From a virus: a stretch of DNA of 64,000 nucleotides. The stretch lies in the IMG/VR virus record IMGVR_UViG_3300037258_000301, positions 1 through 64,000 of that record; one strand, 5' to 3'. The position numbers and the translations under genes were made by a program. This document shows positions 10,587-63,809 of this stretch, in pieces (within the stretch, counting starts at the first letter, position 1; the number at the start of each line of letters is the position of its first letter). Under the pieces are notes generated by a model. The model worked only from the letters and a program-made list of their open reading frames with translations, was not told where the DNA came from and ran no database searches.

Positions 10587-10777
10587 GCACACTGGGTTCG
10601 ATCAGCACGCGGTACATCGATCAGCTGCGGCGCGCCGCTGAGGTAACGGATAGTCCTGAGCATCGCGAGTGGTTCACCACGGTTGCTGATGATCTGGAAG
10701 CGCGGCGTCCGGTGCGCAACCTTGATGAGGTCATGCGGTTCGTCAAGGAGAATCAGGAGGGTTCGACTCCCTCCTGA
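10583..10777 (+). CDS. Hypothetical helical protein, 64 aa
   Basis: ATGA overlap. Helical, with mixed charge (TRYIDQLRRAAEVT; EVMRFVKENQ). Its last codons (EGSTPS) are encoded by a perfect 10-bp hairpin, so the gene end and the hairpin are one structure. Confidence 0.5.
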   Translation: MSTLGSISTRYIDQLRRAAEVTDSPEHREWFTTVADDLEARRPVRNLDEVMRFVKENQEGSTPS

Positions 10778-10778
10778 T
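10752..10778 (+). other. Perfect hairpin resembling a tRNA T-arm and 3' end
   Basis: ATCAGGAGGG and CCCTCCTGAT pair perfectly around the loop TTCGACT, which is a canonical tRNA T-loop, and CCA follows almost at once. A matching 5' tRNA half (GGATCAG) is not present upstream. It may be a terminator, an mRNA-end hairpin, or the tRNA 3'-end fragment carried in an attP site. Confidence 0.5.
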
Positions 10779-11129
10779 CCACAGAGTGACCACCATCCGG
10801 TCAACCCGGACTGGGGTTGGCGCTCTTGCGGTTGCCAGATCCCTCAAGCTGGATGGAGTGCTGTAGCTCAACGGCAGAGCGAGGACCGCAAGTCCACACG
10901 TCAGGTTCGACTCCTGACCAGCACGCGGGCACGGGATTAGCCTTCCCTACGGATGTGAGCCCTCCAATCCGGTAACAGGTAGGTGAGTCTGATCAGCTCA
11001 TCGGTTTTCGATGGAACGTTGCCGGGTTGTTAGGCCCGCTGCCTAGTCGGTGTGCAATGTCGGCACCGCGTTCAAGTCAGGCCAACGCACTACTTGATAC
11101 AACAACGAATTCGGATTGTGAGGGAGACC
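10779..11129. other. Non-coding interval with tRNA-like elements
   Basis: No supported CDS. It holds a tRNA-Cys-like sequence at 10858-10925. The remainder (10926-11129) has several short inverted repeats, such as GTTGCC and GGCCAAC, but I could not fold a second canonical tRNA. It may encode a small RNA. Confidence 0.5.
10858..10925 (+). tRNA. tRNA-Cys-like gene (GCA), non-canonical
   Basis: Acceptor arms GTGCTG and CAGCAC pair over 6 bp. The D-arm is GCTC/GAGC and the T-arm TCAGG-TTCGACT-CCTGA is canonical. The anticodon loop CCGCAAG gives GCA at 10888-10890 (Cys). Oddities: one extra C between T-arm and acceptor arm, C instead of T at position 33, a mismatch in the anticodon stem, and only about 68 nt. 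It may be degenerate or a divergent phage tRNA. Confidence 0.45.
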
Positions 11130-43223: not shown

Positions 43224-44225
43224 ATGACTGAGCAGCGTCCCGTGCCGGTGATCTGCCTGGGGTGCGGACACCGCGAGGTGCTGCCCCTGCGTGAGATCAC
43301 CGCAGCCTTGATGTGTACCTGTGGTTCGGACGATCTTGATGTGTTCGACGAGCACACGGCCGCCGGCCCGCACGAGTACGGCTCCACCTCGGTACCCACC
43401 CATCAGGCACCGTCGACGATTGACGGGTGGAACGAGTATCAGGGTCCGATGCCGGGACCCAACGAGCAGAGCAACGGCATTCCGACTCCGATCACCTGTC
43501 CGATCTGCCACGGCTCCGGTTTCGACCCACAGGACAGCGAGGGTGGCGGCTTCGGTGGCACGTGCCGTACCTGCCGTGGCTCCGGCATCTACACGCCGAT
43601 GACCGAAGCGACACCCCCCATGGTCGCCCGCCATCCGTACCCGAGCAACCAGACCAAGGTGCCATTCATGGGTAGCCCCGGCGTGACGGCGGCCGTCGAC
43701 ACTACTGAGCCCCCGACCAATGAGTACCAGCTTCGACACACCACCCCGGAGTACACCTCGCAGGGACCTCGGGGACCGGCCAAGCCCAATCGGTCCTACG
43801 ACTCCGGTGACGCCGAGACGTACTACCCCAAGGCACAGAACCGCTCTCCTGCGGTGCACCATCGCAAACCACACGACTACTCCAGCGAGACGGCCAAGCC
43901 ATTCTCGATGCCGGGGTCCTCCTGTCCGAACTGTGGGGATGGCCCACTGAGTTTGCGCAAGGACGCCGACGAGAACGCGTGGGCATCGTGCCCGAACTGT
44001 GGCCCGTTGGTGAACATCGATCGGCATCCCGAGTACGACCCGTACAACCTGCGATGGGGAACCGAGCTACCCAAGCAGAAGTTCAAGGAGGGTCGTCGGC
44101 TGGTGGGGAACACCAAGAAGACGGGCCGATTGCTGTCCATCATTTCCAGTGTTCAACAGTCCAATCCGGGCCTGAGCATGCGCGAAGCGGTCACGCTGGC
44201 TCGGCAGACGGTGGCGAGGTACTGA
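43224..44225 (+). CDS. Zinc-ribbon/DnaJ-type Cys-rich head-module protein, 333 aa
   Basis: Starts 2 nt after the preceding stop. Three zinc modules are visible: CLGCGHREV with CTCGSDD (N-terminal ribbon), CPICHGSGFDP with CRTCRGSG (DnaJ-type CxxCxGxG pair, near residues 91-121), and CPNCGDGPLS with CPNCGPLV near residues 233-260. Linkers are Pro/Asn/Thr-rich. The C-terminal ~60 residues are helical and basic (KQKFKEGRRLVGNTKK). Likely a nucleic-acid or protein-binding adaptor packaged with, or assembling, the head. Confidence 0.6.
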   Translation: MTEQRPVPVICLGCGHREVLPLREITAALMCTCGSDDLDVFDEHTAAGPHEYGSTSVPTHQAPSTIDGWNEYQGPMPGPNEQSNGIPTPITCPICHGSGFDPQDSEGGGFGGTCRTCRGSGIYTPMTEATPPMVARHPYPSNQTKVPFMGSPGVTAAVDTTEPPTNEYQLRHTTPEYTSQGPRGPAKPNRSYDSGDAETYYPKAQNRSPAVHHRKPHDYSSETAKPFSMPGSSCPNCGDGPLSLRKDADENAWASCPNCGPLVNIDRHPEYDPYNLRWGTELPKQKFKEGRRLVGNTKKTGRLLSIISSVQQSNPGLSMREAVTLARQTVARY

Positions 44226-44736: not shown

Positions 44737-46936
44737 GCAGCATCCACATGAGGCATGGCAAAGCGCTGTATTCGGTTGCGCCCACATCAGTCAGCATCGC
44801 ACCCTTGCGCATCACCACGTTGCCACCCAGCACCTGGCAGATTTGCTTCGACCGATCTCTCGGGATGAGCAGGTGGCGCGCCTACGCACCATGGATGCCG
44901 GATTCGCTCATGACATGCAGGAGCGTCATCGCCCCTTCGATCCAGTAGCGGATGTGGTGCGTGGTGCTCGTACTTACAATCGTTCCCACGGCCTCGACGA
45001 TCCGCATTCGCTGCCCTACCACCAAGTGCGTACGACTTCCAACACCATCGACCGGGTGGGGAGCGCTTATGGTGCACTACCGGACTTTGACAAGCGTGCT
45101 ATCCCACATTTCCATGCTATGGGTGAAGAAGTAGGGCGTCAGTTCGACCACCTCACGCGTCCTCGCCATCAGGGGGGCATGGGCGTCAACGTCGAATCTG
45201 TTGATCACGATCCCTACGCCAACGTGCACGAGATGGTGCATGATCTGCGGAACAACAACCGTCTCCAGGTCATGGGCACTCACGTTACCGGCGGTCACCC
45301 GTACTTCTCCAACGATCAGAATGATCGATTCCGGGCAGTGCATGATGCTTTCGGCCATGCGGCGACCGGGCGTGGCTTTGATGCCAGCGGTGAGGAGGGT
45401 GCCTATCTCGCGCATTCTCGGATGTTCACCCACCATGCGCTACCGGCCATGCAGAGCGAAACGCGTGGCCAAAACGGCTTCGTACACCTCAACAATGACT
45501 TCGGACCGCAGAAGGTCGCGCTGCTACCCGAACATATCCGCAATATTCCCGTCATCGGCGCCACTCCGACCCAGCGTGTTGCGAAGGCTACCGACTGGGA
45601 CGAGTACCGCCGTATCCAGGATGCCCAGGATCGACGCTATGAGCGTCCTGGCATCGTCGGAGGCCAGGAAGAGCACGACCAGTTCTATGGCCGTGGCGAG
45701 CACGCTGGGGCTGGTACCGAGCACCGCCTGACACCGCAGGAGTGGATGCGGCACTCGCACGAGCCCAGCTTCGATGAACTCCCCCCGCAGGAGCACGAAT
45801 GGCATTGGGGCTATGACCTGGGGGCCCAGCACTCCCAGCACATCGACAACGGCGAGTTCGACCATGCCTACTCCGGTTCGGCACACCCCGACCACTTCTT
45901 CTCCGGCTACACCGAAGGGCTGAGTTCGGTTGCCTCAGCCAATCCACTGTCCACTCCGCAGGGCGTTGTCGCCCACGAGGAAGGTCGACAGAGCGTTCGG
46001 GACATCAACGGCACGCCGCTCTGCGACTGGCACGCCGACCGCGCCAAGGAGCTGATGGGGCTCTCCGACCAGATTGGCCGACAGACCGGCCTGATCGACG
46101 AGACGGAGCCCCACACCCACACCGAGACCCCGACCTACCCTGGCCAGTGCGCTGCCTGTGCGAGCGCTCAGGGGAAGAATGAGGGTCGCCCGTGGGAGGC
46201 TCCGCAGGGTGGTTTCCGGCCGTCCCCCATGAGCGAGCACCAGGTTTCGCAGCGCGCGTGGCCGAACAAGCCAAGAAGGACGGGACCCATGCCGCTGTTG
46301 CCGCAGTCGATGTCCTACCGCGTGGCCGTTCGTCGTGGTCAGGGAGTGCTCCCCCAGCGATCGGACGGTCTTCAACGGATAGCTCACCACATCAGCACGG
46401 ATATGCCCGATATAGTAGTTTTGCATAAATTGGCGCATGATTCCGGAGATGGGCAGACAATTCTGCATTGTCCGTTCTGTGGCTCAGGCCAGGTGATTGC
46501 TACTTCCGACGGCGGGGTGAATTGCGAGTTCTGTAAGGCCAGCTTTACGGTGCAAATTCAACCGCAGTACCCGGCTTTCCCACAGAGCATCGATGGTGCG
46601 CCCGTCAACGTGCCCGGCATGGGTCCGGACTTCTCGCCCTACGGTGGCACTCCACCCGGCGCAGAGGCCCCCATGCCGATGGATGGCGAGGAAGATGACA
46701 CCGACGAGGGCGACCCGATGGGTACCAACGCCGACGAGACCGAGCCGCCACCAGAAGATGATGAGGACGACGAGGACTCGAACAACAACGGGCCGATCAC
46801 CAAAAAGACCTATCGGACCATGACCGGAGTCCGACTTGATCGGGAGGCGTACCTCAGGCATCTCGCGCTGGCCTGTTCCCCTGATACCCAGCAGGTGCTA
46901 CGTCGTGTGCGCGCGGTGAACGGAACCGGCGCATGA
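44726..46936 (+). CDS. Large head-module protein with HDAFGHA...GEEGAY...ETRGQN domain, 736 aa
   Basis: ATG 44726 overlaps the upstream gene. Residues ~60-290 hold a His-rich domain: VHEMVHDLRNNNRLQ, then RAVHDAFGHAATGRGFDASG and EEGAYLAHSRMF, then SETRGQNGFVHL. From memory a closely similar H-D-x-F/Y-G-H, G-E-E-x-A, ETRGQN signature recurs in giant phage polyproteins; the His/Glu set could bind metal. Later parts are acidic, with a zinc ribbon near residue 585 (HCPFCGSGQVIATSDGG with CEFC). Codon use is less GC-rich in parts than in neighbours. Coupled by ATGA to the portal gene. Confidence 0.6.
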   Translation: MTIEQHPHEAWQSAVFGCAHISQHRTLAHHHVATQHLADLLRPISRDEQVARLRTMDAGFAHDMQERHRPFDPVADVVRGARTYNRSHGLDDPHSLPYHQVRTTSNTIDRVGSAYGALPDFDKRAIPHFHAMGEEVGRQFDHLTRPRHQGGMGVNVESVDHDPYANVHEMVHDLRNNNRLQVMGTHVTGGHPYFSNDQNDRFRAVHDAFGHAATGRGFDASGEEGAYLAHSRMFTHHALPAMQSETRGQNGFVHLNNDFGPQKVALLPEHIRNIPVIGATPTQRVAKATDWDEYRRIQDAQDRRYERPGIVGGQEEHDQFYGRGEHAGAGTEHRLTPQEWMRHSHEPSFDELPPQEHEWHWGYDLGAQHSQHIDNGEFDHAYSGSAHPDHFFSGYTEGLSSVASANPLSTPQGVVAHEEGRQSVRDINGTPLCDWHADRAKELMGLSDQIGRQTGLIDETEPHTHTETPTYPGQCAACASAQGKNEGRPWEAPQGGFRPSPMSEHQVSQRAWPNKPRRTGPMPLLPQSMSYRVAVRRGQGVLPQRSDGLQRIAHHISTDMPDIVVLHKLAHDSGDGQTILHCPFCGSGQVIATSDGGVNCEFCKASFTVQIQPQYPAFPQSIDGAPVNVPGMGPDFSPYGGTPPGAEAPMPMDGEEDDTDEGDPMGTNADETEPPPEDDEDDEDSNNNGPITKKTYRTMTGVRLDREAYLRHLALACSPDTQQVLRRVRAVNGTGA

Positions 46937-49188
46937 GCGAACCGTTTAAGGTCAGTGACCGCCGAGGCCGCATCGTCGTTGGCCAATCCGTTGATGATGC
47001 GAAGAAGATGGCCAGCGACGCCACCGATTTGATGCGTCGCACTTTTGGCGACACCAATCCATACACTCAAGCGTTCTCTCGCAACCAGTCCACCGACCAG
47101 GTGGTCGATGAGATGCGACTGAATCGGCGCGTTGCCTCGATGCAGAAACGCGGCATGGGTGTCGGTGGCGTCAACGGTGCGTTCGGAGCCGGGGCCAATG
47201 TCTCCTTTGCGACCGGACGTCCCCGCGATCCGCTGTTCTATTGGCGAGAGAACAATCTCCCGTACGACATCACCAAAGACTCAGAGCTCAAAAAGATCAG
47301 AGCATTTTGTTCACTCCTGTATCTGACCCACCCGATCATCGCGTCCTGTATCGACATCTTCACAAAGTTCCCCTTGCAGGGTATGGAGATTCGGTGCTCG
47401 AAGGATGAGCAGATCGAGGAGTTCTACAACAACCTGTTCTTCGATGAGTTGGGGTACCGCAACTATCTCGTCGATGTGAGCCACCAGCGCTGGCTGCTCG
47501 GCGAGGCATGGCCGTTGGGGTCATTCAACGAGACCTTGGGTGTGTGGGAGGGCGAGGAGCTGCTCAATCCCGATGACGTCGAGGTAGAGCGTTCTGCCCT
47601 GGTCAAGGATCCCCGCTTCCTCATCCGGCTGCCTGAGACCCTGCGGAAGGTGCTTCAGGAGCGTTCGCCGCGCTGGGAGTACAACTCGCTGATCAAGAAC
47701 TATCCAGAGTTGCAGTCCTACGCGGCCGAAGACTCCCTGATGCCGGTCTCGAACATGCTGCTCAAGCAGATCCGGTTCAAGGCAGACACGTTCCACAAGC
47801 GTGGCATTCCGATCCTCATGCGGGCCTTCCGCTCCGTGGTGCAGGAGGAGATGCTCAACGCTGCTCTGGATGCCATTGCCGACCGGCTCTACACCCCGCT
47901 GATCCTGGTACGTCTTGGCGCGTCGGCTTCAGATCTGGGAACTGAAGTTCCGTGGATCCCCACCCAGGGTGATCTGGAGACCTTCGAAGAGGCCATGGAC
48001 GCCGCCTTGGCTGGCGACTTCCGAGTACTGGTCAACCACTTCGCCACCGACATCACCTCGGTGTTCGGACGAGAGAACATGCCCGACCTCTCCGGCGACT
48101 TCGACCGCATCACCGATCGGCTTCTCCAGGTGTTTGGTATCAGTCAAACCATGCTCAACGGTGCAGAATCGGGCGAAACGTACGCGGCTGATGCTCTGAA
48201 TCGCGACATGATGGCCACCCTGCTCACCGATCACCAACTTCAACTTCAGAACTTCTTCGATGATCGCGCTCGGATCGTGGCGGAGGCACAGGAGCACTAC
48301 GACTTCGAGGTCCGGGGCGGTATCCGGTACGTCAAGATGGAGGAAGTCCTCAAGGTCGATGAGGAGACCGGCGAGGAGACCATCGTCGAGCAGCCCAAAC
48401 TGCTGGTCCCCGAACTGTGCTTCGCCACCATGACCCTCTCCGACAAGCAGACCGAACGAGCCTTCCGCGAGGAACTCGTCCAGGGCGGTGTGCCGCTGAC
48501 CATCAAGTCCCGCATCGTCGGCATGGGCATCGACTTCGATCAGATGCTGGAGGAGAAGCAGAACGAGCAGGTTCGACTGGCCGTTGCCGAGCAGGAAACC
48601 CGGCGAGAGACGTTCAAAGCCCTACGGGATCAGCGTCTGCCGATCCCCGTTGATCTCCAGTCCGACTTCCAGCCCGTGGCCAAGCAGCCCGGCCAGCCAC
48701 TCAATCCGGCTCAGGATGCCGCACTGCCACTATTGGGGGCGCAACCCCAGGATCTGCCGGCGTTGGCCCCGACGATGGACGATCAGACGATGGAAGACCA
48801 GCAGGATGCCCCCGGTCCGCAAGACCAGGATGGTCCGAGCCCGATGATGCTGATGCCGATGAACGCGGTACCCCAGGATGGGGATCAACGACCGCCAGAA
48901 TCTGACGAGCAGAGGCAAGGCATGCCTAAGCCGGCACGCAAATACCTCTCACAGAAGATCTCGAAGACGGCCCAGGCCGACTATGACCGGCAGATACGTG
49001 GCCAGATCCATGAGGCCACCCTCAAGCACTATGAGGCACCGGACAACTCCGAGGAAGACCAGGATCGTCCCGAGCATTGGCAGCCGACCGGTAAGTTCGC
49101 CGGGCCGGCACATCTCGGGATGCGTCAGCATGTCCAGATCCCCGAGTCGATGATCTGGCGCGACGAGGATGATGGCGAGACCACGTAA
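46933..49188 (+). CDS. Portal protein, 751 aa
   Basis: ATGA overlap with the preceding gene. The layout fits siphovirus portals: mixed N-terminus, DPLFYWRENNLPYD then LTHPIIASCIDIFTKFPLQG (near residue 135), a wing/stem region with MLLKQIRFKADTFHKRG and FRSVVQEEMLNAALDAI, and a GISQTMLNGAESGETYAAD block at about residue 400 that is typical of portal proteins. The C-terminal 150 residues are Pro/Gln/Asp-rich. Forms the dodecameric ring at the capsid vertex through which DNA is pumped. No terminase lies beside it in this window, which is unusual. Confidence 0.85.
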   Translation: MSEPFKVSDRRGRIVVGQSVDDAKKMASDATDLMRRTFGDTNPYTQAFSRNQSTDQVVDEMRLNRRVASMQKRGMGVGGVNGAFGAGANVSFATGRPRDPLFYWRENNLPYDITKDSELKKIRAFCSLLYLTHPIIASCIDIFTKFPLQGMEIRCSKDEQIEEFYNNLFFDELGYRNYLVDVSHQRWLLGEAWPLGSFNETLGVWEGEELLNPDDVEVERSALVKDPRFLIRLPETLRKVLQERSPRWEYNSLIKNYPELQSYAAEDSLMPVSNMLLKQIRFKADTFHKRGIPILMRAFRSVVQEEMLNAALDAIADRLYTPLILVRLGASASDLGTEVPWIPTQGDLETFEEAMDAALAGDFRVLVNHFATDITSVFGRENMPDLSGDFDRITDRLLQVFGISQTMLNGAESGETYAADALNRDMMATLLTDHQLQLQNFFDDRARIVAEAQEHYDFEVRGGIRYVKMEEVLKVDEETGEETIVEQPKLLVPELCFATMTLSDKQTERAFREELVQGGVPLTIKSRIVGMGIDFDQMLEEKQNEQVRLAVAEQETRRETFKALRDQRLPIPVDLQSDFQPVAKQPGQPLNPAQDAALPLLGAQPQDLPALAPTMDDQTMEDQQDAPGPQDQDGPSPMMLMPMNAVPQDGDQRPPESDEQRQGMPKPARKYLSQKISKTAQADYDRQIRGQIHEATLKHYEAPDNSEEDQDRPEHWQPTGKFAGPAHLGMRQHVQIPESMIWRDEDDGETT

Positions 49189-49571: not shown

Positions 49572-49754
49572 ATGGATCCTTTGGTGCGGGTGGCCTACGA
49601 GGGGTACGGCGAGCACACCCATTGGCTGACCTTCGACGGCCGACCTATGCCCTCCTGGGCCGCGCTGACCCCTCGTACGAGGGATGCCTGGGCGGCTGCC
49701 ATTGAGGCCGTACTGAAAGCACAGGGCGGAGAGACGGATGTGGCACCCCTCTGA
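49572..49754 (+). CDS. Hypothetical protein, 60 aa
   Basis: Start directly abuts the upstream stop. Alpha/beta sequence (DPLVRVAYEGYGEHTHWLT), helical end (TRDAWAAAIEAVLKAQG). Overlaps the next start by 17 nt. Not recognised. Confidence 0.5.
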   Translation: MDPLVRVAYEGYGEHTHWLTFDGRPMPSWAALTPRTRDAWAAAIEAVLKAQGGETDVAPL

Positions 49755-52700
49755 TCGGCTGTTCGCGCACTACGCGGCCGAGCAACCACAGGAGAGTGAG
49801 CCCGTCGCGGACGTCTCCGACCTGCCGCACACGTGCTCCTACTGTGGCTCCCAGGAGTTCGAGCAGCCCGAAGACACCGGGCGCGGTCTGCGGGCCATCT
49901 GCTCGGCCTGTGGGGGCGCCATGCTGCGCACCGAGGATGGTCAGTGGAGTCCGGCCGGTCTGAACGCCACCCACAACCACCCGCGCCCGGATGGTGACCC
50001 CGCTTCCGGTGGTGTCGGGGGCGCCGCGAACGTCGGTGTGGACCCGGACCGGATGAACGACGCTTCGGCCCGGCATGGATCACTCGACGTGATAGCGGCG
50101 CGCGCGTACCAGGACGATCCCTACGTCATGGCGAAGCCGGGCGACAAGGTACCGTGCCCGACCTGTGACGGCCACGGATCCTACGAGGAAGACGAACCCA
50201 AATCGGACGGGCAGGTCGCGCGCGAAGGTATCCCCGACGACGCCCCCGAGGGGGACTTCTACAACACCGTCACCAAGCCGTGCGAAGACTGCGATGAGCG
50301 TGGCTACCACGTACGCCAGACCGACCGGGAAGAGTTGGATACGGCCCGCGCCGAGGGCAACACTCAGTACGTCAAGGACTTCACCGAGAAGCACGAGGAC
50401 GAACCACACCCGGACCGCGTCAAGATGCCCTCCTGCCCGCCGGAGTGCCGCTTCCCGACAGCCCGCCGGGTTCACACACCCAAGCTGAGCGCGCTGAACG
50501 ACGAAGTTCCGTGGTGCGCACACCTCTACCACGGCAACTGCACCTACCCGGGCGACAAGCTGCCCAACGGCACCGTCCTCGGCATCCCGCAGGACCGGGG
50601 CCCGTGCCCGTGGAAGCACAACGCCTTCCAGCAGGCCGCGTGCCCGATCTCCGCGCCGGGCCCGATGGCCGTCATGCAGGTTAGTGCGGCACTGCACGAG
50701 GCGATGCCGTCACGTAAGCATCCGGCACCTGAGGACTTGTCCTACGACACCTATCACCCGAAGCCGGGCGAGCAGTACTTCGACGAGGCCGAAGAGAGCA
50801 ATCCCGGCTGGTCCCACCATCTGCTTCGGGCTCACCGCTCCAGCGTGGATGTTGGCGGGTCGCAACCGCACATGGTTGGCAGCGTCTACTACAGCCACCA
50901 GCCCGACGGTCCCGTGCCGATGGTCAAGGTGCACAAAATGCTCGTCGGCCACCAGTATCGCAGTCAGGGCGTGGCCAGCGCGATGCAGGACGAGTTGCAT
51001 CGCCAGTATCCGGGTCACTTCATCGACCACGGGGATCGGACGGCGGACGGCCACGGCTGGGCCTCCCAGTACGAGGCGCCCTCAGATCACATCATGTCGC
51101 AGGTAACCGGGATGATGAAGATTGTGGCGTTCTCCTGGGACGAGATCGGTGATCGTCACCCGCACATCTACGGTGACTCCGAGATTCACGGAGAAGCCGC
51201 CGATGGGGCCGACGGTCCCGGTATCGGTGACGCGGCGAACTACCTCGCGCACGAACGTCCCGACGATCCTGACGCCGAGCACCACTCGGTGTACGACATG
51301 GACTTTCATGAGGAGCACGTCGACCCGCGACACATCGACTACTCCCCTTCCGGCCGTGACGACTACCGGGTCAGTCATGCGATGGAGGGATACCGTGAAC
51401 ATCCCGACACAATGCCGCCGCTGGTGCTGGTCAAACGCCACCACGTCTACCAGGTCGCCGACGGCCACCACCGGGCCGAAGCCGCCGACGCGGTAGGGGC
51501 TCACGTGCGTGCCTATGTGGCTCACTCGCCCTATCCCGACGAGCCTTTCCGGGACGGCGAGAAGGGGCCTTTCCATCGCGCGGAACCGATCGATGAGGCT
51601 CTGCACCACGAGGCCGCCTGGGCCGACGTACGGAACAAGGCCAAGAGGATCAGGCGTGAAGGCGGCGTTACCATCGTCGTCGCCTCGACCGACGGGGTGG
51701 CCGGCGAGGTCCGGGGCGACACGCACGTCTACGAGACCGCGATCACCTGGGTGCCCGGCACCACCCGCACCGCCTACTGGACCTGTGGGTGCATGTACGG
51801 CGCTTACGCGCACGGTCCCCGCTGGGATGATCGGCCGTGTAGCCACGTGCTGGCCATGCGCTTCGAGGCCCAGTCCCGTTCGGCCCACGGTCGAGAGATC
51901 GAAGTCGACCAGAAACGCCCGGAGTGGCTCAAGCCGCAGACTTCAGTCATGGTGCAGTACGAACGGCCGAGCGAGGATCATCCGCAGGGTCGTGACCTGA
52001 CTCGTCGGGCCGTGCCGCCGGGCAATATGCGATCCACCTGGGATTCCCGATCCCGCACGAGGAGGTCTTCCTTGGAACGCACAGCGGCCATCGCGCAGGC
52101 CCAGGCCATGTTCGCCGAGGACCAGGACCCGGCCGAGGTCATCGAGCAGCTCGTGGCTACGGGTGCGACGCGCCTGGAGGCCCAGGTCGTCGTATTGGCC
52201 GCACGTGGTCGCATGGCCATCGTGCACACCGGCAAGCGATGCCCCGAATGCGGCGCTGAGCTGGACTCCACGGCTGGCCAGTGTGATGAGTGCGGTGCGG
52301 TGCTCGCGGACCGCAGCATCACGCACAGGGCCTCTTGGGGTGATGACGAGCAGCGGTGCCCGCACTGTGGTGGCTACATCGGTCCGTCGGCGTTCAAGGT
52401 CGGGAAATGCCCGCACTGCGGTCACGCGCTGGCCCACAAGACTGGTGCCGCTGACCATGGAGTGTGGTACCACGGTGCCCCTCCTGAGCGCGCAGAACAA
52501 GTACGACGAGAGGGTCTACCGAAATCCTACGGTGGCGAGTACGACCTGCGCCTGACCAGCTCTCCGCAACAGGCCAAGATCTATGGCGACATGCCTGGAC
52601 ATGGGGCGAACGCCACCGTCTTCGAGTTCCACATTCCGCACAACCATCCGGCCCTGCATCCGGTCTACGAGCACAACCTGTTCGATGAGCGCGCCCATGG

Positions 52701-54687
52701 CGTTGCCCTGAAGCAACCGCTGGGCCCTGAATACATCGCCGCCGAGCACAAGGGCACCGATCACATCGCAGCAGCCATTCCGCCCGGCTACGAGGGCGCG
52801 CAGGGGCCGTTCGAGGACGAGTACAGCGAACCACACGTCTACGCGCGTGACATCCACAGCGGCGCCGGCAACTGTGTGTGCGGGGGTGGGCTCGGTGACT
52901 CCATCCACCTCCAGGCCGCGCCCGGCGTCGATGTGCCCGAGCACCAGAGGACCGCTTCCAGCGATCTCGACTACCGCCCACACCGCACTCAGGATGCCCG
53001 CTCAGACGCGCCCATCTTCGGCAAGGGGGTCGACGACTGGGGCCTGACCCTGGTTGACTGCCCGCAATGCGGTGGACAGTCCGGTTGCGGCCACTGCGGG
53101 GGGACCGGGCAAGTGATCTCCACCGGCGACACCACGGCCAACCCGACCCCCGACCAGAACCCGGTGGCCGGCGACACCATCCGCGAGGATGGCATCTCCG
53201 ACACCAGCGCACTGCATCATGAGGCGATGAATGACTACGCCGATCCGATCAGGGGCAAAGTAGGTCCGAAAGTAAATCGGGTCAAGGGTTCGCAGGTACA
53301 ACCGGGGCACGTCATTCCCATGCGGCCCGATCCGTACAACGTAGGCGATTCGTATGCATGGCAGGAAGTTGCTCATAAGGAGCGTTGGCCAGAGGGCAAT
53401 AACTACAAGATCACGAACTCCTCTGGCTCGCACTACACCGTGGTGAGTCCTCACGAGTACGTGCAAGTTCATTCCGATACAGGGCCTGAGCACACGGCGG
53501 CCAAGACGCAATCGGGCCCTTCGGTTGCTGGAGTTGCTCTCAAGGCCGCTGACACGGGCCGCATCCTGATGCTCCAACGCGGCCTGGAGGACGAGAAGGA
53601 CCCGGCACGCGGTCTATGGGAGCATCCCGGTGGCCACATCGAGCCCGGCGACAAGACCACCCTCCATGCTGGACTCAGGGAGTGGGAAGAAGAGGTTGGT
53701 CAGCCCTTCCCCGAGGGTGGCGTTGTTACTCACGCCTGGACGAGTCCGAACGGTGTCTATCAGGGCCATGTGGTGGTGATTCCCCGCGAGCGCGACCTGG
53801 TCATGCATGACGGTCGGGTAGTGCCGAACCCGGATGACCCCAAGGGGGACAAGGCGGAACAAGCGGCCTGGTGGCATCCTGATCATGCCCGGAAGAACCC
53901 AGCCCTGCGGCCCGAGGTCAAGGCCACTCCCTGGAACAAGATCAAGGAGGCTGGAGTCGACGCCGGCCTGAAGGTCGCCGCATTGCTCTCACGTGAAGGC
54001 GCCGCGTGGGACAGCCTGTACTCATTGGAGGAGAGCCAGCCGGTCACACCGCCGCCGCACTCGAACAGCGAGAACCCGGCCAGTACCGGCTTCCTCACCA
54101 ACCAGGATCCCGCTTCCTGGTCCGAGGTCACCAAGAAGCCGCATCACTTGCTGCCGGCCGACTCGCTGGACTCACCGCTGGCCACACTGCACTCCGTACC
54201 CGAGGGCGCACTCCCGTTCACTGACGGAGACGCCGAGGACTCCACGTCGGGCACCGAGGACCCCTACAACAGCCAGACCGATACCGAATCGCTCGACGGG
54301 GACACCGACACCATCCCGGATGCGGAGATGGAAGGCTCTCCCATGGAGAATCTGGGCGGGACAGCCAAGCGTTCGGTCGCGGAGATCGTCGAGCAGTTCC
54401 AGCGCACGGCGGGGGCGGTAGCACTTCAGTCCGGTAGCGAAGGAGGTAGTGACGTGGGATTCTCCGACGGTGAGATCGCGGCCAAGGCCAAAGAGCGGCT
54501 GGCCGGCATGAGCAAGACCGCACTCAAGAACTTCAGCTTCGCCGAGCAGCAGGAACTGATCGGAGAGGGGCAGGGTTCCCGGGCCAGGAATTTTGGGGAC
54601 CTATCCCTCTCCGGAACGCACTATGAGGCGCTCCAACAGGCATTGGACACTGCCGGAGTGAACGATGACGACATTCTGATCCTGTGA
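49738..54687 (+). CDS. Giant polyvalent-type protein (zinc ribbons, GNAT-like, ParB-like, SWIM, ART-like and Nudix domains), 1649 aa
   Basis: Domains in order: zinc ribbon (CSYCGSQEF, CSACGGA, ~31-62); DnaJ-type half-sites (CPTCDGHG, CEDCDERGYH, ~140-190); GNAT-like acetyltransferase core (VGHQYRSQGVASAMQDEL, ~400-420); ParB/sulfiredoxin-like unit (VYQVADGHHRAEAADAVGA, ~570-590); SWIM zinc finger (WTCGCMYGAY with CSHVLA, ~680-705); two zinc ribbons (CPECGAELDS, CPHCGGYIG, ~835-900); ADP-ribosyltransferase-like module (VWYHGAPPERAEQVRREG, ~908-1000); another Cys-rich half-site (CPQCGGQSGCGHCGGTG, ~1108); Nudix hydrolase (WEHPGGHIEPGDKT, LREWEEEVG, ~1263-1390); acidic tail. Phages and conjugative elements encode such polyvalent proteins, thought to be injected with DNA to neutralise host defences. 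Sits between portal and protease genes, so it may be packaged. The ART-like and GNAT-like calls are the least certain. Confidence 0.7.
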   Translation: MWHPSDRLFAHYAAEQPQESEPVADVSDLPHTCSYCGSQEFEQPEDTGRGLRAICSACGGAMLRTEDGQWSPAGLNATHNHPRPDGDPASGGVGGAANVGVDPDRMNDASARHGSLDVIAARAYQDDPYVMAKPGDKVPCPTCDGHGSYEEDEPKSDGQVAREGIPDDAPEGDFYNTVTKPCEDCDERGYHVRQTDREELDTARAEGNTQYVKDFTEKHEDEPHPDRVKMPSCPPECRFPTARRVHTPKLSALNDEVPWCAHLYHGNCTYPGDKLPNGTVLGIPQDRGPCPWKHNAFQQAACPISAPGPMAVMQVSAALHEAMPSRKHPAPEDLSYDTYHPKPGEQYFDEAEESNPGWSHHLLRAHRSSVDVGGSQPHMVGSVYYSHQPDGPVPMVKVHKMLVGHQYRSQGVASAMQDELHRQYPGHFIDHGDRTADGHGWASQYEAPSDHIMSQVTGMMKIVAFSWDEIGDRHPHIYGDSEIHGEAADGADGPGIGDAANYLAHERPDDPDAEHHSVYDMDFHEEHVDPRHIDYSPSGRDDYRVSHAMEGYREHPDTMPPLVLVKRHHVYQVADGHHRAEAADAVGAHVRAYVAHSPYPDEPFRDGEKGPFHRAEPIDEALHHEAAWADVRNKAKRIRREGGVTIVVASTDGVAGEVRGDTHVYETAITWVPGTTRTAYWTCGCMYGAYAHGPRWDDRPCSHVLAMRFEAQSRSAHGREIEVDQKRPEWLKPQTSVMVQYERPSEDHPQGRDLTRRAVPPGNMRSTWDSRSRTRRSSLERTAAIAQAQAMFAEDQDPAEVIEQLVATGATRLEAQVVVLAARGRMAIVHTGKRCPECGAELDSTAGQCDECGAVLADRSITHRASWGDDEQRCPHCGGYIGPSAFKVGKCPHCGHALAHKTGAADHGVWYHGAPPERAEQVRREGLPKSYGGEYDLRLTSSPQQAKIYGDMPGHGANATVFEFHIPHNHPALHPVYEHNLFDERAHGVALKQPLGPEYIAAEHKGTDHIAAAIPPGYEGAQGPFEDEYSEPHVYARDIHSGAGNCVCGGGLGDSIHLQAAPGVDVPEHQRTASSDLDYRPHRTQDARSDAPIFGKGVDDWGLTLVDCPQCGGQSGCGHCGGTGQVISTGDTTANPTPDQNPVAGDTIREDGISDTSALHHEAMNDYADPIRGKVGPKVNRVKGSQVQPGHVIPMRPDPYNVGDSYAWQEVAHKERWPEGNNYKITNSSGSHYTVVSPHEYVQVHSDTGPEHTAAKTQSGPSVAGVALKAADTGRILMLQRGLEDEKDPARGLWEHPGGHIEPGDKTTLHAGLREWEEEVGQPFPEGGVVTHAWTSPNGVYQGHVVVIPRERDLVMHDGRVVPNPDDPKGDKAEQAAWWHPDHARKNPALRPEVKATPWNKIKEAGVDAGLKVAALLSREGAAWDSLYSLEESQPVTPPPHSNSENPASTGFLTNQDPASWSEVTKKPHHLLPADSLDSPLATLHSVPEGALPFTDGDAEDSTSGTEDPYNSQTDTESLDGDTDTIPDAEMEGSPMENLGGTAKRSVAEIVEQFQRTAGAVALQSGSEGGSDVGFSDGEIAAKAKERLAGMSKTALKNFSFAEQQELIGEGQGSRARNFGDLSLSGTHYEALQQALDTAGVNDDDILIL

Positions 54688-57372: not shown

Positions 57373-60300
57373 GTGCTCAAGTACGCGACGCTGGAGATCC
57401 TGGACGCCCGTATGGGGCATCCCAATGTACGACTACGCACCGCGCACCGGGCCGTGTTCAACTACATCCCCCGCGAGGGCTACCTCTACGTTCGCTCCCG
57501 AGCCATCAGCAGCAGGACCAACGACAACTACGACCACTTCTCGGCTGAGGAGATCAAGGGGAACGGCAGCACTACGGGCTACAAGACCTTCATCGGCAAG
57601 CCCGTCTTCGTCAATCATCACAATGAGGATCATCGCCGGATGCGTGGCGTCATTATTGACGCGGTGTTGCATAAGGACCGCAATCCCGATGGCTCACCGG
57701 ATACCTGGTCCGAAGTGTTGATGGAAGTCGACGCGGTGCGCTTCCCGAAGTTGGCCCAAGCAATTTTGGCTGGCCACATCGATCGCACCTCGATGGGTGT
57801 CGATGTCGAGCGGAGCACCTGTTCAGTGTGTGCCAATGTCGCCCAAACCCCCAGCGACTACTGCCGACACATCCCCGCGATGAAGGGGAAGCGTTACCAG
57901 TCCGTCGATTACAAGACGGGCGCGAAGAAGACCAATCTCGTCTATGAGAAGTGCGCCGGCCTGAAGTTCTTCGAGAACAGCCTTTTGGTCGAGGAACCAG
58001 CCGACCCATCTGCATATTTGCTTGATCATCCAGTATTGGGGCCCGGATTAGAGCACATGCTTCCACGTACGGCCAGCTCTAATGGACGAGATGGTCATGT
58101 CGGACACTCCGAAGCGGTCTCCAATTTCTTTCATGGTCAACTGACCACGCCTGGTTCGACCACGCCCAATCGCCACCCGAGGCAACAACTCCCGCTTGAT
58201 GAGTCGAACATCCTCTTCAGTCAGAGTCGCCCAGGGGTTGCGGGAGCCGGGCAGGCTTCTTCCGCGAATCACCATGTCTCGCGAGTTGTCGGCGTTGGAC
58301 CCCAGCAGCCAGTGGTGGCGGTTATGGCAGAGGGGGACATCGCAGGTATGCCGTACCACGTCGCCAGGCGGAATGGGACCGACCAACGTTTCGTAGCCCC
58401 ACCGATGGGAGCGCACCGAGGATCGCTTGGCGTCGTCCAGGGACAGACGGCCGTACCCGTTGCCGAAAGTCCCGCCAGTCCACAGATGGCAAGCATCAGG
58501 ACCACCGCTGGTGTCGATGCTGGCCAGGTAGCGTTCCAGGACGGTTTTGGTTCGAACGAAAGTGCCATGTCGGGACCTGCTGACCATAGCCTTCATATTA
58601 GCAGAACTGCTATGCACCGCGCCGACGCACTGATCATGCGCAAGACCCGTGCGGCCGACCTCTCCGACGAGGATCTAGTGGACACCGACGAAGAGCTGAA
58701 GCAGAGGGCCCGCATGCTCGGCAAGCCAGGTCAGGTTTCGAAGATCCACAAGACCGTGCAGCAGGAACGCAAACGTCGGGTCGGAGCGGTGGACCCTCGC
58801 ATCTTCGATGTGCCGGCCGACGCCTCTCCCGGATTGCCTCGTTACACCTCGGCCGGGGCATGCCCGGCTTGTCGAGGTACCGACACTATCCGGGTCGAAT
58901 CCGTTCGTGAATGCGGCGAATGTGGACACCTCTGGATGGTCGCGATGGTCGATCCGGACCAGCTGCTCGTCCAGGCCGCTCCACGTCACCAGGACCCGGC
59001 TCAGCACCCCTGGTTCCAGGCCAATCCCGTGTCCCATCAGCATGTCGTCGACATGTGGAACAAGGCCACGCCGGATGAGAAGAACTCTGGTCGTCGCTGG
59101 TACCCGGATGCTCACTTGGTGGCTCAGTCTCTGGGTAAGTTGCACCCTGACCACCCGCTCAACGGTGGTACCAAGACCGAGAAGCATGCCTACGTCGACA
59201 ACCCCGACGAGACTGACCAGAAGCACACTCACATGGCTGCCGGTGTGTTGGCCACCTACTCACCGCAGAGTCCGTGGACAACCAACATGCACAACGCGGC
59301 CCGCGCCCTGCACGAAGGCAAGGGCATCGGCGGCAAGGGCGGCGGCGTGATGGCCTCCCAACAGCAGTCCGACTCCGCCAGTCGGATCATGTCCGGCGAG
59401 AAGTACACCGACGTACTCAAGGGCCCGAAAGTCAGCGACTTCGCTCATTTGATCGAGCACGGCGGCGATGAGCATGCTGACGACCCTCATGTGGTCGTCG
59501 ATCGACATGCCCTCTCGGTGGCCACCGGGAAGCGCATGACCGAAGAGGACTACAACAGCTTCCCCAAGTCCAACCGGCATTACTACGGCCACGTCGTGCA
59601 GGCATACAAGGACGCGGCTGACCAGATCGGCCGCAAGGGCGGCGAACCGATCGCTGGACACCAGGTGCAGGCTGCCACCTGGTTGGCTCAGCAGCGGCAC
59701 AACCAGGCGTCCGAACGGGCTATCCAAGGTCAGGACAGTAATGTCGACCGGCTGAACAAGGGGCGTGAGCGCTCTCGGCAGCGGGCCGAGGAAGGGTGGT
59801 CCCAGTTCAAGCAGGAGCATGGCCTGAGTATTGGCGGTGAACCCGGCACCGGTTACACGGCTCGCAAGTTGGCCTACGGCGAACAGAAGGCTCCTGCTGA
59901 TGTGGATACTCTGCGGGACGAATCCTGCCCGATCTGTGGTGAGTCCACGGCTGCCTATGACGGTCGCAACTGCGGTGTCTGTGGTTGGGAGGCCCCGCCG
60001 AAGATGTTCGCCGATCCTGATCTGGAGATGGCCAAGCAAGTCGACCTGCGCAAGGACGTGCTTGACCCATCCGGACAGGACGGCACTGATGTCGGCGACT
60101 TCGCCGACGAGTCCGCTGGTGGCCTGGAGGTCGGTGAGGATCAGCCCGACCTGGTCTGTGACAACTGCGGTACTACGTTCGATGCGGGCCAGCCGCAGAC
60201 CACCAACACCGAGGATCCCGAGGCGGGCGATCGCGGTGACGGTCCGGCCGAGGGGGACGTCTGCCCCGAGTGTGGCGTGGGTGAATTGGTACCTCCGGAC

Positions 60301-60624
60301 GTCCTGGAGGGTGATCAGAATGAAGAAGGGCCTGAGGGATCCCTGGAGGTCGGTCCCACGGATGATGTGGATTCTCAGGGTGGGAATCCCAACGCCGTCG
60401 ATCCGAGCGGATTTGAGCAGAGTTCCGACGTGCAGGACGAAGAAGAGCCCGAGGTCGATGAGGATCAGGACTCCGACAATCCATTCGCCAAGGGAGATGC
60501 CTCTTCCGACGATGAGGACGAAACAGGCGAGGACGAAGACGAGGACGACGTTCCGCCGAAGAAGGCCAAACCCCAAACCAAGCACTCGCTGCGCGATCGC
60601 GTCTTCGGACCTCGGAATAGGTGA
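57373..60624 (+). CDS. Prohead protease fused to large Cys-rich extension; hosts an antisense HNH gene, 1083 aa (GTG start)
   Basis: GTG 57373 with GAGGAGG upstream. Residues 1-220 are protease-like: KTFIGKPVFVNHHNEDHRRM (catalytic His), SEVLMEVDAVRFPKLAQAI, and GHIDRTSMGVDVE (catalytic Ser), as in prohead proteases that mature the capsid. Residues ~230-415 read across the reverse complement of an HNH gene without a stop. Then a zinc ribbon (CPACRGTDT, CGECGH, ~497-520). A 545-775 domain (HMAAGVLATYSPQSPW, HVVVDRHALSVATGKRM) looks like an HhH/DNA-glycosylase-like fold. More zinc ribbons (CPICGES, CGVCGWE; CDNCGTTF, CPECGVGE) and an acidic tail follow. The extension is polyvalent-like. Confidence 0.75.
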   Translation: MLKYATLEILDARMGHPNVRLRTAHRAVFNYIPREGYLYVRSRAISSRTNDNYDHFSAEEIKGNGSTTGYKTFIGKPVFVNHHNEDHRRMRGVIIDAVLHKDRNPDGSPDTWSEVLMEVDAVRFPKLAQAILAGHIDRTSMGVDVERSTCSVCANVAQTPSDYCRHIPAMKGKRYQSVDYKTGAKKTNLVYEKCAGLKFFENSLLVEEPADPSAYLLDHPVLGPGLEHMLPRTASSNGRDGHVGHSEAVSNFFHGQLTTPGSTTPNRHPRQQLPLDESNILFSQSRPGVAGAGQASSANHHVSRVVGVGPQQPVVAVMAEGDIAGMPYHVARRNGTDQRFVAPPMGAHRGSLGVVQGQTAVPVAESPASPQMASIRTTAGVDAGQVAFQDGFGSNESAMSGPADHSLHISRTAMHRADALIMRKTRAADLSDEDLVDTDEELKQRARMLGKPGQVSKIHKTVQQERKRRVGAVDPRIFDVPADASPGLPRYTSAGACPACRGTDTIRVESVRECGECGHLWMVAMVDPDQLLVQAAPRHQDPAQHPWFQANPVSHQHVVDMWNKATPDEKNSGRRWYPDAHLVAQSLGKLHPDHPLNGGTKTEKHAYVDNPDETDQKHTHMAAGVLATYSPQSPWTTNMHNAARALHEGKGIGGKGGGVMASQQQSDSASRIMSGEKYTDVLKGPKVSDFAHLIEHGGDEHADDPHVVVDRHALSVATGKRMTEEDYNSFPKSNRHYYGHVVQAYKDAADQIGRKGGEPIAGHQVQAATWLAQQRHNQASERAIQGQDSNVDRLNKGRERSRQRAEEGWSQFKQEHGLSIGGEPGTGYTARKLAYGEQKAPADVDTLRDESCPICGESTAAYDGRNCGVCGWEAPPKMFADPDLEMAKQVDLRKDVLDPSGQDGTDVGDFADESAGGLEVGEDQPDLVCDNCGTTFDAGQPQTTNTEDPEAGDRGDGPAEGDVCPECGVGELVPPDVLEGDQNEEGPEGSLEVGPTDDVDSQGGNPNAVDPSGFEQSSDVQDEEEPEVDEDQDSDNPFAKGDASSDDEDETGEDEDEDDVPPKKAKPQTKHSLRDRVFGPRNR
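58048..58596 (-). mobile_element. HNH homing endonuclease gene, antisense inside the protease gene
   Basis: Minus-strand ORF with GTG 58617 or ATG 58596; ATG 58596 is used here. It contains CHLWTGGTFGNGYGRL, then VRHTCDVPLCHNRHHW (HNH core) and GSNADNSRDM, followed by a C-terminal helix-turn-helix (MKEIGDRFGVSDMTISSIRAG). It is a free-standing homing endonuclease of the HNH_3/NUMOD type. It lies codon-on-codon antisense within the plus-strand ORF, so TTA, CTA and TCA codons are absent and the host frame stays open. An inverted repeat (TAGCAG/CTGCTA) sits at its start. Confidence 0.85.
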
Positions 60625-62176: not shown

Positions 62177-62698
62177 ATGATCCGGACACCGCTGAATCTC
62201 AGCTACATCAAGCGTGAGTTGCGCCCGCTGTACGGCTGGTCTCAGGCGACGCCGAAGGCTGCTTTCGTCGATCCTTCGTGGACGTCATCCGTTGACATCT
62301 ATCCCGGCATGGTCATGCAGAAGATGTTGGGCGACAACGTCACTCTGCTCAATGCCTCGGGTACCCCGTATGGTCTCGCATCGTTCCTGATGGCCCCCAA
62401 GCTGGGCATCGACGAGATCACCGAGACAGGCGTCAACGCCTGCGCGGTATGGGTTATGGGTCCCGACGCCGAGTTCGAGATCCTCGCGCCGTCATTCGAC
62501 ACCACGGCGACCTGGACCGACCCCGGCAACGGCACCACCGCCTTGGTCTACGCGTACACCACGGGGGCCTATCAAGGCGTGTTGTGCCCCTCCACTGGTT
62601 CGCAGGGCTCCGTCAGTGCACTTCCGGTCGCCCGGCTGTTGCAGGTGGCCTCGACATCCAAGATCCGTATCGGCGGCCTTCAGGCCCGGACTGCGTGA
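62177..62698 (+). CDS. Putative capsid decoration/stabilisation protein, 173 aa
   Basis: ATG 62177 is preceded by GGGAGGG; the longer frame starts inside the terminator. Beta-rich sequence with VDIYPGMVMQKMLGDNVTLLN and a central AVWVMGPDAEFEILAP, a pattern like capsid-decorating proteins that precede capsid genes (gpD-type order). The C-terminal half is a set of short strands. Immediately upstream of the capsid gene, so it is probably made in large amounts. Confidence 0.55.
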   Translation: MIRTPLNLSYIKRELRPLYGWSQATPKAAFVDPSWTSSVDIYPGMVMQKMLGDNVTLLNASGTPYGLASFLMAPKLGIDEITETGVNACAVWVMGPDAEFEILAPSFDTTATWTDPGNGTTALVYAYTTGAYQGVLCPSTGSQGSVSALPVARLLQVASTSKIRIGGLQARTA

Positions 62699-62708
62699 GG
62701 GAGTGACG

Positions 62709-63809
62709 ATGACGAACACTTTGGTTCGCACCAGCGCCCTCGGGGGCCGGATCGCGAAGAAGTCTGACGACTACGTGTCGCAGATCCTGGCCCGTCGTGA
62801 GAAGAGCGGTGCGCTCTCCCACGAAGCCAAGGTCGACAAGCTGGCACTGATCCTCTCCGACGAGAGCAACGGCATCAAGCGTCTCGGCGTCGGCATGATC
62901 GGCCCGATTCAGCTCAAGCTGCGGTATCAGGGCATCACCCGCAACGTGCTCATCGAGGACCCGGTCACCCCGGGCACCCCCGTCGAGTACGACGTGTGGG
63001 ACGACCTTGGCCAGGCATACATCATGTCCGGGCACGAGGGCGAAGTCCGCATCACCCCGTTCGAAGGCAAGCGCGTTCCGATCCGGTTCTTCCGTATCGC
63101 CTCGCGCCCCGCGATCCGCAAGGAAGACCTGTTCTACCTGCGGATCAACGCTGTCGAGCAGGCGCAGGACGAGACCAAGCAGGCCATCCTCAAGCAGGAA
63201 GACTCGCGGCTGCTCGTACTGCTCCAGTCCGCCGCGAATGCCTACGCCACGCGGCCGGACCACGTCATCACCCCGAACCACAACGTCACGGAGGCCAGCG
63301 GATACTTCACCCCCGCCGGCCTGTACGAGGCAGTTCGTCAGACCGACATGCACGAGTTGCAGTCGGCCCGCATTCTGGTGAACCCCTACGACTTCCGTGA
63401 CTTCTACCAGTGGGACATCAACACCACTGGCTGGGCCTTCAAGGACAGGGTGGTGGCCGGAGAGACCATCACCACGTTCGGTGAGTTCCAGTTCCAGCGG
63501 TCGATCATGGTCCCCGCCGGCACGATGTACCTCACCCCGGAGCCGAACTTCCTCGGCGTCTTCCCGGTTCTCTACTCGCTCGATGTCGAGGAGAACCACA
63601 ACGTGGAGGCGTTCTGGAAGGGCTGGGTGTTCGACGAGATGGTCAACATGACCATTCTCAACCCGCGTGGCATCGCTACCGTCACGAAGGCGTCGGAAGC
63701 GCTCTACTCCGACCCGACGTCGCTCGGTGGTGCCGCAACCGGCCTCACCTCGCCGCCGGCCACGGAGTCCGCGCTCAACCCGCCAGGCGCCTACACCACC
63801 TGGCCGTGA
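62709..63809 (+). CDS. Major capsid protein, HK97-fold type, 366 aa
   Basis: ATG 62709 has TGAGGGAGTG upstream. N-terminal helix region (IAKKSDDYVSQILARREKS), then a long strand-rich domain with RITPFEGKRVPIRFFRIAS and a spine-like helix (YLRINAVEQAQDETKQAIL). Ends with ENHNVEAFWKGWVFDEMVN. It lies at the end of the head module, after protease, scaffold-like and decoration-like genes, and is flanked by strong terminators. This position, length and fold pattern point to the major capsid protein. Confidence 0.8.
   Translation: MTNTLVRTSALGGRIAKKSDDYVSQILARREKSGALSHEAKVDKLALILSDESNGIKRLGVGMIGPIQLKLRYQGITRNVLIEDPVTPGTPVEYDVWDDLGQAYIMSGHEGEVRITPFEGKRVPIRFFRIASRPAIRKEDLFYLRINAVEQAQDETKQAILKQEDSRLLVLLQSAANAYATRPDHVITPNHNVTEASGYFTPAGLYEAVRQTDMHELQSARILVNPYDFRDFYQWDINTTGWAFKDRVVAGETITTFGEFQFQRSIMVPAGTMYLTPEPNFLGVFPVLYSLDVEENHNVEAFWKGWVFDEMVNMTILNPRGIATVTKASEALYSDPTSLGGAATGLTSPPATESALNPPGAYTTWP

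Follow-up and report, generated by a model that had tools for sequence, protein, structure and literature searches.

The 1649-amino-acid open reading frame (ORF) at 49738-54687 on balance probably encodes a head-associated cargo carrier of the polyvalent type, in an E3/Bxz1-like myovirus of actinobacteria. On alignment with its relatives, the conserved core of the protein is a SWIM zinc domain together with a C-terminal domain of about 90 residues, all other modules being exchangeable. In the SWIM-protein family as a whole, the exchangeable parts comprise GNAT, ParB/sulfiredoxin (ParB/Srx), Nudix, ADP-ribosyltransferase (ART), 2H, LysM and zinc modules, and several of them are also found in the neighboring prohead-protease ORF and in other head genes.

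The ORF lies within a stretch of 64,000 nucleotides (the window) from a virus record of 151,624 bp. The ORF is real: its 1649 codons are uninterrupted, and GGAGAG stands close 5' of the ATG. The record comes from a metagenomic virus collection, so that an assembly artefact, either in the ORF or in the fusion, has to be considered; however, comparable full-length ORFs of the family occur on tens of separate contigs, which in practice refutes this explanation and leaves it a negligible probability. The head genes concerned are as follows.

46933..49188, + strand: portal protein (phrog_2833, E 1.8e-136), 5' of the SWIM-protein ORF
49738..54687, + strand: modular SWIM protein of 1649 aa, orthologous to E3 gp76 and to the LysM-like protein of the Bxz1 type
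57373..60624, + strand: prohead protease ORF, the second modular head gene (phrog_18299, E 9.5e-26; PF23802, E 1.8e-32)
62616-63809: capsid gene, 3' of the prohead protease ORF

The preliminary description had placed the ORF between portal and protease genes, and this order is confirmed, but the protease does not adjoin it, the two being separated by an ORF with an fn3 domain and three small ones. The prohead protease ORF is modular too, with a protease domain, a zinc ribbon, DUF7178 (function unknown) and an acidic tail. Genes for tRNA-Ile(GAT) and tRNA-Cys(GCA) lie at 10690-10926. The capsid protein shares about 60% identity with its counterparts in Rhodococcus phage E3, the Bxz1-type mycobacteriophages and phages of Gordonia, and the portal is about 33% identical to the portals of the same lineage, from which we place the window phage in the E3/Bxz1/Gordonia myovirus lineage.

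The modular architecture had been recognized earlier, but the membership of the protein in a conserved family, usually annotated as LysM-like, had been overlooked. Judged by its sequence matches, the ORF is not unique; it is an orthologue, and a highly variable one, of the "LysM-like protein" found in E3 and in the Bxz1/Myrna-type mycobacteriophages. A tblastn search with the whole protein matched 216 phage records, mostly from Mycobacterium phages and including a few Nudix-only matches, while the SWIM segment alone led to 211 records and the C-terminal segment alone to 204. The matching genes include E3 gp76, Pleione gp99, Colt gp86, Myrna gp96, CherryTomatoes 93, Phrappuccino 52, Stormageddon 12 and Finch 16. 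About 200 deposited actinobacteriophage records contain a member of the family, usually labeled hypothetical or LysM, and most of these phages were isolated on hosts that can be cultured. A viral scan with the whole 1649-aa protein as direct query gave no matches; the relatives were reached by way of a portal alignment, which led to 80 metagenomic loci, and profiles built iteratively from the SWIM segment and from the C-terminus found about 50 ORFs each. The named relatives share, with no exception, the gene order portal, SWIM protein, large protease ORF, small structural gene and major capsid protein (MCP), and the synteny of portal, SWIM protein, protease and MCP extends over E3, Bxz1-type, Myrna, Gordonia, Rhodococcus and metagenomic phages.

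Does the usual annotation reveal the function? The label "LysM-like endolysin" carried by mycobacteriophage orthologues would make the family a virion-associated, peptidoglycan-binding protein of lysis or entry. A LysM module is indeed present in Bxz1-type phages, Phrappuccino and relative L007, but the proteins of E3, Myrna, Gordonia phages and nearly all metagenomic orthologues are without one, as is the window protein, where LysM gave no match. In addition, no peptidoglycan hydrolase domain appears among the families listed for 39 members, and we regard this role as very unlikely. LysM looks like one more exchangeable module.

The modules of the window protein are arranged as follows.

49798..50028, + strand: zinc-ribbon module z1 (aa 21-97), with CxxC pairs; in at least 10 relatives and in ORF 43224-44225
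50152..50457, + strand: zinc module z2, DnaJ CxxCxGxG-like (aa 139-240); its L020 homologue overlaps a weak PF00684 match (E 1.3e-3)
50488..50697, + strand: zinc module z3 (aa 251-320); in 10 relatives, in variable order
50791..51078, + strand: GNAT acetyltransferase-like module (aa 352-447), from a family profile
51127..51594, + strand: ParB/sulfiredoxin-fold module (aa 464-619) with invariant QVADGHHR, from a 17-sequence alignment, AlphaFold and Foldseek
51598..51930, + strand: SWIM core (aa 621-731; C683, C685, C701, H703), nearly invariant in 39 relatives
52240..52431, + strand: double zinc ribbon, DZR (aa 835-898), PF12773
52429..52782, + strand: orphan module, claimed earlier as an ART (aa 898-1015); identity not established
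52825..52974, + strand: small zinc motif HSGAGNCVCG (aa 1030-1079), recurring in two other proteins
52975..53235, + strand: zinc module z9 (aa 1080-1166), also in L089, L087 and L026/L095
53518..53952, + strand: Nudix module (aa 1261-1405), PF00293, above the Pfam cut-off
54001..54261, + strand: conserved linker region m12 (aa 1422-1508), found in most metagenomic relatives
54379..54687, + strand: conserved C-terminal domain (aa 1548-1649), bearing the motifs FQRTAG and SKTALKNFS, in every full-length relative

The specific module order had been suspected to be new, and the order z1-z2-z3-GNAT-ParB-SWIM-DZR-(orphan)-z9-Nudix-m12-CT was indeed seen in no other family member examined. The 44 full-length orthologues, 603-2186 aa in length, fall into 23 module architectures; this set includes a few near-copies, and undetected modules would push the count above 23. 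The N-terminal modules form a separate ORF in L020, L022, L027 and L030, overlapping the SWIM ORF by 1-10 bases, z2 is shifted relative to its neighboring modules in L089, L025 and L028, and GNAT lies on either side of SWIM. Within the window, the zinc module at the N-terminal end of the SWIM protein is also present in the 333-aa ORF 43224-44225. L026 has the HSGAGNCVCG motif in its gp70-like ORF, and Mycobacterium phage Tonenili has it in its 2H protein.

Of the five modules named in the preliminary description, Nudix and SWIM are clear, GNAT and ParB gain support, and only the ART fails every test; the several zinc ribbons also named there are borne out by ten CxxC pairs and by the double zinc ribbon (E 4.5e-6). 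The Nudix module matches PF00293 with 51.1 bits (E 1.8e-13). Its Nudix box is the variant GGHIEPGDKTTLHAGLREWEEEVG: in this lineage Asp replaces the first Glu and one residue is added before REWEEEVG, a form common to the SWIM-hosted relatives. The GNAT module, a weak match as a single sequence (E 0.03), was recovered by a profile of ten relatives that found 53 PDB chains, almost all of them GNATs (best E 1.5e-4), and the homologous module of L067 exceeds the Pfam cut-off (26.3 vs 20.7 bits). Sequence searches with the ParB module likewise gave weak matches. An AlphaFold model from 17 sequences (mean pLDDT 93.4), in all of which DGHHR is conserved, had sulfiredoxin, ParB, Noc, SbnI and free serine kinase as its top PDB matches in Foldseek, and the modeling thus supports a ParB/Srx fold for aa 464-619.

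The segment at aa 898-1015 was rejected as an ART. It had no matches in Pfam, the PDB or phage and viral collections, and only non-significant ones among plasmids; its scores against three ART-type profiles from relatives were equaled by 492-1150 of 2000 shuffles; and a single-sequence AlphaFold model (pLDDT 34.7) was too poor for judging the fold. The pattern YHG..LTSS..Y..FEF is suggestive only. Recognized ARTs do occur in relatives, namely Arr-ms in L031 and L022, an ADP-ribosyltransferase exoenzyme in L020 and an Arr-type ART in the gp70-like ORF of L057. Separately, a module with the pattern LHRG..W[ST]..xE(V/I)P recurs in the SWIM ORFs of L006, L036, L042, L051, L092 and others, with up to three copies per protein; it resembles R-S-E ARTs by motif only, with no Pfam or PDB match.

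When 39 members were aligned, the columns that hardly vary were the CxC..CxH of the SWIM domain (CGC-x15-CSH in the window protein), the preceding AW.DV..KA.R.R..G, and the C-terminal E..N..L..THY, of which E1610 and T1627-H1628-Y1629 (window numbering) are invariant in all 39. PF04434 matches three of the 39. Hint/intein-like insertions stand precisely at the first and third SWIM cysteines in two orthologues (L019:13093-17172 and L087:14595-19502). Inteins tend to persist where sites are functionally constrained, so these insertions fit an important SWIM domain. An intein-like LAGLIDADG insertion is also found at a zinc-ribbon cysteine of a gp70-like structural ORF, L026:7509-9698.

Such conservation of the SWIM and C-terminal domains, and of genome position, could also be read as the mark of a head protein with a part in structure or assembly (an internal core, scaffold or portal-vertex factor), whose modules act in assembly or serve no function of their own after infection. 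E3 gp76, moreover, manages with 603 aa and no recognized cargo. If the role were purely structural, however, it is difficult to see why enzymatic motifs would be kept (QVADGHHR in 17 ParB modules, the REWEEEVG-type core in Nudix) and why the modules would occur in different genes; we consider this explanation unlikely.

ParB is carried by the SWIM protein in four phages, including that of the window, by the separate N-terminal ORF of L020, and by the protease ORF in ten, where it sits 3' of the protease domain and 5' of DUF7178 when the latter is present. To explain the ParB tree, the label has to change twice between hosts on the SWIM side and hosts on the protease side, and the tree is compatible with a single origin of each side. 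Eleven phages (the window phage and ten others) have Nudix in the SWIM protein and L109 has it in the protease ORF; further head-gene ORFs with this module are Gilgamesh 52, the Pam4 protease and the Sonali portal-MuF. DUF7178 belongs to the protease ORF in twelve cases and to a SWIM protein in one, with three more cases in ORFs that are of other kinds or truncated. The 2H phosphoesterase is a solo neighbor gene in seven cultured phages and fused in L072; E3 and mycobacteriophages have it as a solo gene. Perhaps the SWIM protein and the prohead protease are interchangeable docks of one delivery system, between which modules hop and from which the protease frees both cargos at [RK]TA; we hold this extension only tentatively and rather doubt it. 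If true, it would give each phage a custom set of enzymes ejected with its DNA.

Solo ThyX, 2H and WhiB genes occupy the same portal-protease gap in relatives, and this observation invites another reading, in which the SWIM protein is made late, stays out of the virion and performs several functions in the infected cell (on the nucleotide pool or in host takeover), its place within the head operon being incidental. Its presence in virions is, after all, something that we infer. Literature searches found no virion proteomics papers on the E3/Bxz1 lineage, the E3 record labels gp70, 78, 87 and 89 but not gp76 as "structural protein", and gp96 goes unmentioned in the cryo-EM paper on Myrna. A non-virion protein would nevertheless not be expected to have modules and an [RK]TA signature in common with the prohead protease and gp70-like ORFs, and we judge this reading quite improbable. 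The ThyX-like gene of Colt (L004:6627-8093) is matched by a Pleione ThyX profile in two pieces about 175 aa apart, which suggests an insertion.

We predict, from sequence, that [RK]TA is a candidate maturation-cleavage site of the head proteins. Relative to locally shuffled sequence, the motif is enriched about four-fold both in SWIM proteins and in protease ORFs. The enrichment is five-fold for gp70-like ORFs and slightly more than two-fold for portals, with a weak excess (8 vs 4.2) in 15 other window genes. When homologous contexts were collapsed and counts compared with those of five permutations of the motif, there were 57 distinct contexts vs 12-20 in SWIM proteins, 45 vs 8-18 in proteases, 26 vs 1-8 in gp70-like ORFs and 22 vs 4-14 in portals. 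The motif is biased to linkers outside recognized modules (binomial p 0.01 for SWIM proteins, 1.5e-4 for proteases), but in SWIM proteins this bias is not significant when set against permuted motifs (Fisher p 0.09). Within the window genome alone, the contrast between head genes (11 in 6025 aa) and downstream genes (3 in 5939 aa) is suggestive (p 0.057). In the window protein, [RK]TA is found at 781 and 1071, both at module borders, at 1556 and 1593 in the C-terminal domain, and at 434 and 677 inside modules; the MCP sequence of the window has none. To our knowledge, no cleavage site or MCP N-terminus has been established for the E3/Bxz1 lineage. A second candidate, HE|A, was dropped as a repeated cleavage motif in favor of [RK]TA, being enriched 1.9-fold in SWIM proteins and not elsewhere.

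How would a cargo carrier of this kind work? The SWIM and C-terminal chassis would take its place in the prohead next to the portal. Trimming by the prohead protease at linker sites of the [RK]TA type would release modules, which would exit with the DNA and act in the host during the first minutes of infection. Their roles may include nucleotide hydrolysis by Nudix, acetylation by GNAT and nucleotide-dependent action on nucleic acids by ParB/Srx. Packaging, cleavage and ejection are steps that we infer; a role against host defenses would be speculation, and we know of no host target for the modules. If the cargo-carrier reading is right, the phages of M. smegmatis offer a tractable system for what a phage delivers with its DNA, together with a catalogue of candidate early effectors and a chassis that undergoes module exchange in nature. 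The prediction for [RK]TA is easily tested.

The closest known proteins are E3 gp76, Pleione gp99, Colt gp86 and Myrna gp96, which occupy the same place in the genome and are about 30-45% identical in the SWIM core and C-terminal domain. The E3/Bxz1-type orthologues, however, are without GNAT, ParB and Nudix modules, and those of the Bxz1 type instead have LysM and low-complexity regions. As far as our searches reach, the SWIM and C-terminal chassis and its sharing of modules with the prohead-protease ORF are undescribed.

Polyvalent proteins are placed near portal-terminase genes, and their domain list includes GNAT, ART, ParB/Srx and 2H (Iyer et al. 2017, PMC5512222). The window protein resembles them in combining disparate domains (Nudix, GNAT, ParB/Srx, SWIM) near the virion genes of a portal-terminase phage, with GNAT and ParB/Srx modules of its own and ART and 2H in its orthologues. 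The earlier polyvalent-type label suits the architecture well, with unrelated modules beside virion genes. For GNAT and ParB/Srx the likeness to the published domains is at the level of superfamily, above the specific RimI-like GNAT and DdrB-like ParB families, and for the ART the label finds no support in the window protein. Unlike polyvalent proteins, the window protein has a SWIM and C-terminal chassis and many zinc modules; SWIM is treated in that paper only for SWI2/SNF2 ATPases (PMC5512222). A zincin-like, self-processing metallopeptidase is common, not universal, in polyvalent proteins, and the window protein has no HExxH and no peptidase match. That the SWIM protein has modules in common with the prohead protease ORF points to processing in trans, and not by a metallopeptidase within the protein itself.

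Enzymatic modules are also attached to head proteins in MuF and portal-MuF effector fusions, and the portal-MuF of Arthrobacter phage Sonali has a homologous Nudix, while MuF itself gave no Pfam or PHROGs match in the window protein. The head ejection proteins of SPN3US are packed in the head, trimmed by the prohead protease and ejected (PMC10052503). The likeness of the window protein to these, and to T4 Alt and the T4 internal proteins, would lie in the delivery model, and whereas the SPN3US protease cuts after AxE, the candidate motif of the window lineage is [RK]TA.
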